Assembly (NCBI RefSeq): GCF_009184905.1
Contig: NZ_WESC01000010.1
Location: 62,001 to 126,000, forward strand
Length of the DNA stretch: 64,000 nt
Reading direction: 5' to 3'
Source: Parvibaculum sedimenti
GTDB taxonomy: Bacteria > Pseudomonadota > Alphaproteobacteria > Parvibaculales > Parvibaculaceae
Below, piece by piece: positions 28,705 through 31,271 of this stretch. The notes beneath the pieces are model-generated. The model saw only the letters and a program-made list of their open reading frames with translations, did no database searches and was not told the DNA's origin. A program made the translations under genes and the position numbers. Position 1 is the stretch's first letter. Each line of letters begins with the position of its first letter.

Positions 28705-29619
28705 ATGGGACTTCTTGAGGGCAAGGTCGTTCTGGTCACCGGCGCCGCCGGCGGCATCGGCAAGGAATGCGCGCTGATCGCAGCCCGTGAGGGCGCGAAG
28801 GTCATCGTCAACGACCTCGGCGGCAGCGTGAAGGGCGGCGACGAGGGTAATGCCTCGGCCGCGCAGAAGACGGTCGACGAGATCAAGGCGGCGGGCGGCG
28901 AAGCGGTCGCGAACTCCGACAGCGTGGCACTGAAGTCTGGCGCCGAGAACATGATCGCCCAGGCGCTCGACACCTTCGGCGGCCTCCACTCGATCATCAG
29001 CCCGGCCGGCATCCTGCGCGACGGCATGTTCCACAAGATGCCCGACGAGGACTGGAAGGCCGTCATCGACGTCCATCTCCATGGCAGCTACAACATCACG
29101 CGCGCGGCCATCAATCACTTCCGCGAGCAGCAGGAAGGCAGCTTCGTTCTCTTCACCTCGACCTCGGGCCTCATCGGCAATATCGGCCAGGCGAACTACG
29201 CCGCCGCCAAGATGGGCATCGCCGGTCTCTCGCGCATCATCGCCATGGAAGGCGCGGCGAAGAACGTCCGCTCCAACATCATCGCGCCCTTCGCCTGGAC
29301 GCGCATGATCGCGACCATCCCGGTCAAGGACGAAGTGTCCGCGAAGCGCGTCGAGCGCATGAAGAACGCGATGCGCGCCGAGCAGGTCGGCAATTTCGCC
29401 GTGGCGCTTGCCGCGCCGAGCTGCACGTCGAACGGCCAGATCTATTCGGTCCGCGGCAACGAGCTGGTGCTCTTCTCCCAGCCTCGCCCCGTGAAGTCGG
29501 TCGCCCGCATCGACGGCTGGACGCCCGAGACGATCCTGACCCACGCCTTCCCTGCCATGGAAGGCGGCTATACCGACCTTGGCAATACGGGCTCGGTGTT
29601 CACCTGGGAACCGGTGTAA
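28705..29619 (+). CDS. Short-chain dehydrogenase/reductase, MFE-type hydroxyacyl-CoA dehydrogenase-like
   Basis: Encodes 304 residues. Cofactor loop TGAAGGIG (12-19), catalytic set S152, Y165 and K169 (ANYAAAKMG). The NDLGGSVKGGDEG segment after the second strand is typical of the 3-hydroxyacyl-CoA dehydrogenase part of peroxisomal multifunctional enzymes. The usual NNAG is SPAG (99-102), a substitution of the structural Asn. A C-terminal extension beyond about 250 carries a further GYTDLGNTGS. Likely acts on hydroxyacyl-CoA thioesters, by inference. Two strong hairpins follow the stop. Confidence 0.86.
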   Translation: MGLLEGKVVLVTGAAGGIGKECALIAAREGAKVIVNDLGGSVKGGDEGNASAAQKTVDEIKAAGGEAVANSDSVALKSGAENMIAQALDTFGGLHSIISPAGILRDGMFHKMPDEDWKAVIDVHLHGSYNITRAAINHFREQQEGSFVLFTSTSGLIGNIGQANYAAAKMGIAGLSRIIAMEGAAKNVRSNIIAPFAWTRMIATIPVKDEVSAKRVERMKNAMRAEQVGNFAVALAAPSCTSNGQIYSVRGNELVLFSQPRPVKSVARIDGWTPETILTHAFPAMEGGYTDLGNTGSVFTWEPV

Positions 29620-29633
29620 GCGCTTACCCACAT

Positions 29634-29668
29634 TTCGTCACGGCCCGCATAAAGCGGGCCGTGACGAA
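29634..29668 (+). terminator. Strong 15-bp hairpin after the SDR gene
   Basis: TTCGTCACGGCCCGC pairs perfectly with GCGGGCCGTGACGAA across a 5-nt ATAAA loop, 15 nt after the SDR stop. It lacks a T tract, so it may act as a transcript-stabilising end or an imperfect terminator. Confidence 0.6.
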
Positions 29669-29691
29669 GAAGTGCATATGGACTTTTCAGG

Positions 29692-29717
29692 CGGCGACAC
29701 CCATATAGGTGTCGCCG
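29692..29717 (+). terminator. 10-bp hairpin in the leader of the ArfA-like gene
   Basis: CGGCGACACC pairs with GGTGTCGCCG across CATATA, then TTT. It ends 10 nt before the AGGAGG ribosome site of the ArfA-like gene. It may terminate readthrough from the SDR gene or shape the leader of the next one. Confidence 0.45.
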
Positions 29718-29738
29718 TTTGGCTTTCAGGAGGTTGCG

Positions 29739-29945
29739 ATGGCCCATCGAAAGAAGGCGCCTCCCAAGAGGCGCAATATCGCGGCGAAGGCACTCGCCTC
29801 ACCGCTCCACCGACAGCGAGTCGTGAAAAACCGCTGCAAATACGACCGCAAAAGGCGCGATGCCACCGAAGGCCTCGCGTCTTTTCATTTTGCTGGAAGG
29901 CAGATGAACGACCGATCTTTCTGTTCAATCCCAGCCGGAGCGTAA
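29739..29945 (+). CDS. arfA: ArfA-like alternative ribosome-rescue factor
   Basis: Encodes 68 residues from an ATG with a perfect AGGAGG six nt... upstream (29728-29733). The core NIAAKALASPLHRQRVVKN (13-31) followed by YDRKRR lines up with E. coli ArfA NAIEALLHDPLFRQRVEKN and YMRK, recalled from family knowledge. ArfA enters stalled ribosomes lacking a stop codon and recruits RF2, backing up tmRNA. As in known arfA genes, a terminator-like hairpin lies inside the coding region (29850-29885), so the natural product may be a truncated peptide of about 40-48 residues made from non-stop mRNA. The last codons overlap the opposite-strand gene at 29925. Confidence 0.75.
   Translation: MAHRKKAPPKRRNIAAKALASPLHRQRVVKNRCKYDRKRRDATEGLASFHFAGRQMNDRSFCSIPAGA
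29850..29885 (+). terminator. Terminator-like hairpin inside the arfA coding sequence
   Basis: AAAAGGCGCGA (29850-29860) pairs with TCGCGTCTTTT (29875-29885) with one G-U pair, and GCC/GGC extend the stem inward; the sequence after is T-rich (TCTTTTCATTTTG). It begins at codon 38 of 68. This placement is the regulatory hallmark of proteobacterial arfA: transcription termination or RNase III cutting yields mRNA without a stop codon. Confidence 0.65.
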
Positions 29946-30320
29946 TCTCGAATATGCTCTTTGCCACCAATGCGGCAAACCAGCGTTCATACCATGCGCC
30001 TCAGAGATATTGCATAAGACGCTAATTAATACGTCGTCGGGATAGCGCCCTTCCGGGTTGCCCATTTTCAGAAGATGACCCGAAATCTGGTGGTGCATGT
30101 CGGTCAAGCCGCGGGCAATCTCTATCTTCTCAGCATCCGAATAGCTTCTCTCCCGTATCGCAACGACATTGGATTCGAGCATCGCCGAATTTTCATATGT
30201 CGATCGACCGAACATATCACGTCCCACAAGAGTCAACTCCCAGCTCAGCAGAAGAAGCATTCTTGTCTGTTGCTCTGGTGACATTGCCGTAAATTGCGCG
30301 ACGTAATCTGCCTTTTGCAT
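29925..30320 (-). CDS. Conserved-looking hypothetical protein, 131 residues
   Basis: Starts MQKADYVAQFTAMSPEQQTR and continues as a mostly helical, soluble protein with no signal peptide or membrane span; the end contains HWWQRAYSRLRSGWD. No family recognised. It starts 6 nt after the LysR stop on the same strand, so the two may be co-transcribed. Its 3' end overlaps the ArfA-like ORF by 21 nt on the opposite strand. Coding is supported by uninterrupted length and composition, not by homology. Confidence 0.65.
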   Translation of the reverse strand: MQKADYVAQFTAMSPEQQTRMLLLLSWELTLVGRDMFGRSTYENSAMLESNVVAIRERSYSDAEKIEIARGLTDMHHQISGHLLKMGNPEGRYPDDVLISVLCNISEAHGMNAGLPHWWQRAYSRLRSGWD

Positions 30321-30326
30321 GATTGG

Positions 30327-31271
30327 CTACTTCCGGCCCTTCTTCGCCGCCTGATCGAGCGGCCCGATCCAGGGTGCCTTGCCGGGGCCGAACTCCTCGA
30401 CAGCGAAATCCACGAAGGCGCGGACCTTGGCCGAGAGATGCCGCGTATGCGGATAGATGACGTGCAGCGTCAGCGGCGAAAACTGCCAGTCATCACAGAC
30501 GGAGATGAGTTCTCCAGATCGCAACCTTTCGTAGCAGATGAAATCCGGCGAGAGAGAAAGCGCTTGCCCCGCCATCAGCACTGCACTCGCAGCATCGGCA
30601 TTGTTGCAAAGAAGCGACCCCTTCAACTCCACCTGCAGGCGCTTGCCGGCTGCATCTTGCATTTCCAGAAGCTCGGGCCGCTGCACCTGCGTGTAGAGGA
30701 TGAAAGAGTGATCGGCGAGATCGCGCGGATGCTTCGGAACACCGTGCGTCTTGAAATATTCCGGCGTGCCGACGATGAAGCGGCGAACGGGCGCGAGCTG
30801 CCGCGCAATGAGGCTTGAATCAAGCAGCGCCGAAATGCGCAAAGAGACGTCGAAGCCCTCCTCCATCAGATCGATGCGGCGGTCGTTCAACTCCAGATCG
30901 ACGACGAGTTCGGGATAGCGGGCGAGAAATTTCGGCAGCACCGGCCCAAGTTCGCGGATGCCGAAAGTCATTGGCGCGTTGATACGCAAACGCCCACGCA
31001 CCGCGCCCTCGATGCAGACCGCATCCCTTTCCGCCTCCTCCGCCTCCGCAACGATGCGGCTCGCGCGCTCGAAAACGACCGCGCCTGCCTCGGTGACGCT
31101 GATCTTGCGCGTCGTCCGGTTCAGAAGTCGGACGCCGAGTTCGTCCTCCAGCATTGAGACCTGGCGGCTGACCATGGATTTGGAGAGTTTCAGCGCTTCG
31201 GCGGCGGCGGTGAAGCTGCCGAGTTCGACCACCTTGGCATAGGCGGCAAAGGCATTGAGATCCAGGGCCAT
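30327..31271 (-). CDS. LysR-family regulator next to quinone-defence genes
   Basis: Encodes 314 residues. HTH at about 17-36 (SFTAAAEALKLSKSMVSRQV) and a LysR substrate domain with RINAPMTFG (CrgA/AaeR-like subgroup). It is divergent from wrbA with a 120-nt gap, the classic position of an autoregulated LysR activator. E. coli has a similar set in which YhaJ (LysR) neighbours yhaK (pirin) and yqjG (glutathionyl-hydroquinone reductase), which supports a quinone/electrophile sensor role by inference. Confidence 0.9.
   Translation of the reverse strand: MALDLNAFAAYAKVVELGSFTAAAEALKLSKSMVSRQVSMLEDELGVRLLNRTTRKISVTEAGAVVFERASRIVAEAEEAERDAVCIEGAVRGRLRINAPMTFGIRELGPVLPKFLARYPELVVDLELNDRRIDLMEEGFDVSLRISALLDSSLIARQLAPVRRFIVGTPEYFKTHGVPKHPRDLADHSFILYTQVQRPELLEMQDAAGKRLQVELKGSLLCNNADAASAVLMAGQALSLSPDFICYERLRSGELISVCDDWQFSPLTLHVIYPHTRHLSAKVRAFVDFAVEEFGPGKAPWIGPLDQAAKKGRK

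Follow-up and report, generated by a model that had tools for sequence, protein, structure and literature searches.

In Escherichia coli, the hairpin within arfA is reported to yield a non-stop mRNA (PMC8012679). ArfA itself is described as occurring in a subset of beta- and gammaproteobacteria (PMC8012679, PMC6881298). One survey reports arfA to be absent from Alphaproteobacteria (PMC10070815), and Table 1 of a second lists 0 of 2,376 alphaproteobacterial genomes with ArfA (PMC11633108). The protein is annotated in phages of Alphaproteobacteria (PMC12753301, PMC8953757), and among the literature matches listed there is no report of ArfA on an alphaproteobacterial chromosome. Here we describe a gene from such a chromosome, within a stretch of 64,000 nucleotides (hereafter the window), whose product is probably a divergent rescue factor of the ArfA type, self-limited by an mRNA that lacks a stop codon, as judged from its sequence and those of its relatives.

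The ArfA-like locus and its neighborhood

The elements of the locus, apart from its internal hairpin, are the following.

29739..29945, + strand: ORF of 68 codons, read in frame as an ArfA-like rescue factor (translation; profile matches via relatives)
29728..29733, + strand: Shine-Dalgarno sequence AGGAGG (sequence; the start in a second genome of the genus, G015, is preceded by AGGAGG too)
29777..29855, + strand: ArfA-like core, NIAAKALASPLHRQRVVKNRCKYDRKR (alignments A1-A3 and PDB alignment)
29692..29717, + strand: leader hairpin just 5′ of the Shine-Dalgarno sequence, candidate terminator of the upstream gene or leader element (terminator score)
29634-29668: perfect hairpin of 15 pairs without a T-run, after the dehydrogenase stop codon
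29925-30320, − strand: ORF of 131 residues between the ArfA-like and LysR genes (ORF call)

Translation and alignments confirm the 68-residue product with an ArfA core that the original prediction had proposed, and the perfect AGGAGG lies five bases before the ATG. A gene for a short-chain dehydrogenase (SDR) lies upstream on the same strand. Downstream, on the opposite strand and beyond the 131-residue ORF, lies a gene for a LysR-type regulator. The 131-residue ORF overlaps the ArfA-like frame by 21 bases and has no Pfam match at E ≤ 0.001. A simple consensus scan of 29400-30400 found no sigma-70-like promoter, and no Rfam family reached its gathering score in the window.

Both of the additional upstream hairpins that had been pointed out are real, but neither belongs to a general pattern, the nearer one being shared by the members of the genus that carry the gene. 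The leader hairpin has a terminator score d of 25, on a scale of the d'Aubenton-Carafa type. All seven members of the genus that carry the gene have a terminator-like hairpin here (−47 to −21 or −49 to −22), with d = 14-50 in the six other than the window. Neither upstream hairpin was found at the same place in the seven loci of other families that were inspected. Near the site matching 29634-29668, G015 has a different hairpin. Because the leader hairpin leaves little room for a promoter before the start, transcripts of the ArfA-like gene may come by read-through out of the dehydrogenase gene or from a more distant upstream promoter.

Among 27 genomes of the genus, seven have an orthologue, counting the genome that holds the window. 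The G015 protein shares 90% identity with the window's over residues 4-51. The remaining five have diverged further and are shorter; by eye, their genes lie between the end of the same SDR gene and the LysR gene, which again has its 3′ end toward them. Five of the seven loci lack the internal hairpin and end in a stop codon.

Homology to ArfA and DUF7230

The assignment to ArfA made in the original prediction fails with public models and succeeds with profiles built from relatives. The window protein scores 12.1 bits (E = 0.14) against Pfam ArfA (PF03889), short of the gathering cut-off of 25.5 bits, and NCBIfam models match neither this protein nor 26 of its relatives. A phmmer search of PDB with the single window protein gave a best E of 1.2, judged to be chance. 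Homology becomes visible because profiles were built from relatives instead of relying on public models alone. With a profile of seven close relatives (rows from the genus and from family f34), PDB chains of ArfA are matched at 2.5e-4 to 4.4e-4 and the next hit is at 0.084, so that at E ≤ 0.001 nothing in the PDB but E. coli ArfA is matched. The larger profile A2, made of 26 alphaproteobacterial rows from among the loci listed and including no known ArfA, reaches PDB ArfA at 3.9e-9 to 7.1e-9, the next hit being at 0.87. Loci L033, L036, and L040 were excluded from A2 as chance matches, and L009 was judged to be another. On the evidence of its core, the window protein is thus to be placed in the ArfA superfamily in the wider sense. 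It lacks the GGQ of the ArfB release domain.

At E ≤ 0.1, 11 of the 26 rows match Pfam ArfA and 9 match DUF7230 (PF23876); in the class as a whole, the cut-off of Pfam ArfA is passed in 8 of 385 genomes. Two small A+T-rich alphaproteobacterial genomes (G136 and G410; loci L074 and L076) encode very short ArfA-like proteins that have KGKGS, pass the Pfam ArfA cut-off, and have a stop codon right after the core. When 12 DUF7230-like rows are made into a profile, PDB ArfA is matched at 4.5e-6 and nothing else at E ≤ 1. From these profile matches, DUF7230 seems to be related to the ArfA superfamily. DUF7230-like loci include L023, L057, L062, and L070. The window protein does not match the DUF7230 Pfam model up to E = 10; a short orthologue from the genus does at E = 3.2e-5, with 24.4 bits, under the cut-off of 27. 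No paper mentioning DUF7230 was found among the literature matches listed. BrfA, the rescue factor of Bacillus subtilis, is described as unrelated in sequence to ArfA (PMC6881298), and no BrfA chain occurs among the PDB matches of the ArfA-like and DUF7230-like profiles.

Two functional positions of E. coli ArfA can be placed on the alignment. Pro23, a contact to the decoding center, corresponds to Pro22 of the window protein. Lys17 occupies the position of Ala18, where a small residue is absent, and in an ungapped placement of A2 most rows (23 of 26) have K, R, E, or Q in this column, two have Tyr, and one has Ala. Replacement of Ala18 by Thr in E. coli ArfA abolishes activity and blocks RF2 activation (PMC8012679). 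Since Lys17 and the charged or polar residues of most other rows take this position, the N-terminal contact with RF2 may differ. The KGKGS motif is also missing, falling in a three-residue gap of the alignment with E. coli ArfA, and the N-terminus is a basic stretch. These features, together with the weak Pfam scores, would suit a small basic peptide that has the ArfA core, binds the ribosome or RNA, and acts without RF2. Such a peptide is nevertheless very unlikely: the PDB matches at E ≤ 0.001 are to ArfA only, a non-stop mRNA best suits a rescue factor, and ArfB, nearly constant in the genus, was not found in the window's genome (see below).

The hairpin within the coding sequence

Two further elements of the locus are the following.

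29850..29885, + strand: terminator-like hairpin inside the coding sequence (folding, terminator score, background scan, synonymous recoding)
29882..29891, + strand: T-rich 3′ flank of the hairpin, TTTTCATTTT, where the mRNA is expected to end (sequence; nT score 4.7)

Eleven outer pairs (29850-29860 with 29875-29885) are followed by one mismatch and three inner pairs, and the G+C-rich stem is accompanied by an A-tract and a T-rich run. Hairpin and flank (29850-29891) lie in frame at codons 38-49. Sequence, folding, and score all bear out the 11-pair hairpin and T-rich flank originally proposed for these codons. The folding z of the ORF is −2.98, and equally good folding is found in 2 of 200 shuffles. 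The terminator score is d = 24; in 56,640 nt of the window's other genes, only one hairpin reaches d ≥ 20. When the peptide is recoded at random with synonymous codons, none of 400 recodings reaches 24 and six exceed 0. The window hairpin therefore exceeds chance expectation. A simple consensus scan for terminators did not list it, probably because of the mismatch in the stem.

Homologous loci were drawn from 385 genomes of the class, the genomes of the genus, and named contigs. The search of the 385 genomes matched 34 at E ≤ 0.001, of which 30 yielded loci; the four others (G094, G264, G401, and G053) gave no locus and were left out of the hairpin scoring. L046 and L048 were treated as repeats of G015 and G150 and were not recounted. 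In total, 38 loci were compared, and 13 of them have a convincing terminator-like hairpin, in frame and past the core: those of the window (G000), G015, G072, G297, JABIUG (a Rhodospirillaceae MAG), G370, G259, G155, G161, G107, G398, G321, and G150. The 12 of these that are labelled fall in eight families (f1, f34, f69, f73, f112, f117, f123, and f155). Local G+C ranges from 32 to 72%. Counted from the first base of the Tyr codon in the Y-x-R-K motif, the 13 hairpins begin 5-65 nt downstream. In two loci (G390 and G313) there is a G+C hairpin but its T-run is poor, and in G400 a terminator-like hairpin lies downstream of the stop codon. The other 22 loci, the five of the genus included, lack a hairpin of this kind, and an ordinary stop codon closes the frame shortly past the core; among them, G376 has a strong hairpin without a T-run. 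L078 and L049, also among the 22, show no hairpin and reach a stop codon past the core.

A score of d ≥ 5 no more than 60 nt from the Tyr codon is reached in 12 of the 38 loci, as against 6 of 1305 segments of other genes (5/906 and 1/399). Because the loci are not independent, a binomial test (12/36) overstates the case; the excess over other genes is still large. For each of the 13 loci, the observed score is reached in 0-7 of 400 synonymous recodings. An alternative to termination by RNA polymerase is that RNase III cuts the message at the hairpin, which would leave a non-stop mRNA either way. Both routes have been described for E. coli arfA (PMC8012679), and the homologues with a strong hairpin and a poor T-run (G390, G313) or none (G376) could be read in its favor. 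The combination of A-tract, G+C stem, and T-run in the 13 loci is, however, typical of terminators, and RNase III cutting appears unlikely.

Conservation falls after the T-run

If polymerase termination at the hairpin sets the end of the message, the gene proper would be shorter than its ORF.

29739..29890, + strand: predicted true mRNA part, about 50 codons, without a stop codon (end of conservation and hairpin position; the 3′ limit is an estimate)

In six within-family pairs of loci, identity is 65-87% in the core and 76-97% in the hairpin region, and drops to 17-38% in an ungapped comparison of the 60 bases past the T-run. In gapped alignments past the T-run, four of the six pairs are at chance level; the two others show slightly more similarity than shuffled sequence, the value of G297/JABIUG being reached by 0 and that of G398/G321 by 2 of 40 shuffles. 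These ranges exclude the pair with poor T-runs, G390/G313, which gives 94, 89, and 43% in the core, in the hairpin, and after the T-run. The in-frame tails of the 13 loci have no obvious similarity to each other, and their stop codons occur anywhere from 28 to 283 nt past the stem. Because conservation falls at the T-run and the tails are unalike, the conserved part of the gene seems to stop at the T-run rather than at a stop codon. No stop codon appears to be conserved in the hairpin-bearing form, and of the evidence for a non-stop mRNA this pattern is the strongest. Between G398 and G321 of f73, two double changes keep the pairing. In f1, f34, and f117, a pair is either the same or altered on one side alone, and not every member forms all the inner pairs; two-sided changes were found only in f73.

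The same hairpins might be ordinary, often bidirectional, terminators between convergent genes, the frame being open by chance and full-length protein being made from read-through messages. The convergent LysR gene of G015 has its end next to the hairpin, 6 bases beyond the stem; for the convergent ORF of the window, this distance is 46 bases. In 8 of the 13 loci, the hairpin scores above 0 as a terminator on the opposite strand too. Yet the window hairpin scores −14 on that strand, G155, G370, and G107 have their next gene on the same strand (by simple ORF calls), the position past the Tyr codon is nearly constant in several families, and the tail past the T-run is unconserved in four of the six pairs. 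A convergent-gene terminator may thus cover some loci, though not the whole set, and as a general explanation we consider it quite unlikely.

Ribosome rescue genes in the genome and in the class

The tmRNA (of the alpha type) and SmpB, for which a search of the genome had been proposed along with the original prediction, are both present in the window's genome. There are also two full-length release-factor genes, one for RF1, recognized by its P-A-T motif, and one for RF2, assigned by exclusion. The SPF motif characterizes E. coli RF2 (PMC5378476); L081, read as RF2, has SPY in its place. ArfB (NF006718) was found in 25 of the 27 genomes of the genus. It was not found in the window's genome, which is rated 100% complete in 41 contigs, and the other genome of the genus without it is only 57% complete. 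G015, which bears the same hairpin, has ArfB. The distribution fits a replacement of ArfB by the ArfA-like gene in the window's genome, as a single case. Across the class, avoidance between the two is non-significant: ArfB occurs in 7 of 34 genomes with an ArfA-like match versus 121 of 351 without (p = 0.13). A tblastn search in plasmids gave no match.

Profile homology and the recurrence of the layout in several alphaproteobacterial families support the original reading of an ArfA-type rescue gene with a non-stop layout. Under the mechanism we propose, RNA polymerase would terminate at the hairpin and T-run within the coding sequence, so that most mRNAs would stop short near 29890 with about 50 codons and no stop codon. 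Ribosomes would reach the end of these mRNAs and stall. While tmRNA-SmpB is active, trans-translation would free the stalled ribosomes and the tagged peptide would be degraded. When trans-translation fails, the peptide would escape and act with RF2. Termination at the hairpin, tagging, dependence on RF2, and control by tmRNA are inferred, and the ArfA-like factor would accordingly be expected mainly under tmRNA failure. A truncated E. coli ArfA that ends at Asn47 remains active (PMC5378476), and the window peptide up to the T-run spans the same region but is three residues shorter around KGKGS.

A broader reading can be offered tentatively, and we hold it with clear reservation: the Alphaproteobacteria might own a wide ArfA branch, including DUF7230, that has been missed by surveys, in which terminator and stop codon have repeatedly been interchanged and whose terminator form displaced ArfB in the window's organism. 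If the proposed reading is true, RF2-dependent backup rescue and self-limiting non-stop mRNA extend to a class known for ArfB, and DUF7230, a Pfam family of unknown function, gains a testable one. Related genomes with and without the terminator would then be a natural experiment on how such control is kept or lost.

Comparison with known systems

The closest described system is E. coli ArfA (YhdL, PF03889). The window protein shares with it the core N-x(8)-P-L-x-RQRV-x-KN followed by Y-x-RK, a basic tail, an internal hairpin past the core, and the presence of tmRNA and SmpB in the same genome. It differs in its Pfam score, which is below the cut-off, in having no KGKGS and a Lys at the position of Ala18, in a dissimilar tail, and in belonging to another bacterial class. 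DUF7230 shares with the window protein the core without KGKGS, and many DUF7230-like rows have a stop codon right after the core. ArfB (YaeJ) is also a backup of trans-translation, and the usual one in Alphaproteobacteria, but differs by a GGQ domain of its own. The other parallels are with short basic factors of other bacteria. ArfT of Francisella tularensis is by description likewise a release-factor-dependent backup of trans-translation; it uses RF1 or RF2 and is said not to be regulated by such control (PMC8327144). BrfA of B. subtilis is likewise RF2-dependent, with a terminator in its coding sequence, and repressed by trans-translation (PMC6881298). In conclusion, the type of system is already known, and it is the divergent branch, the host class, and the patchy occurrence of the terminator that appear to be new.
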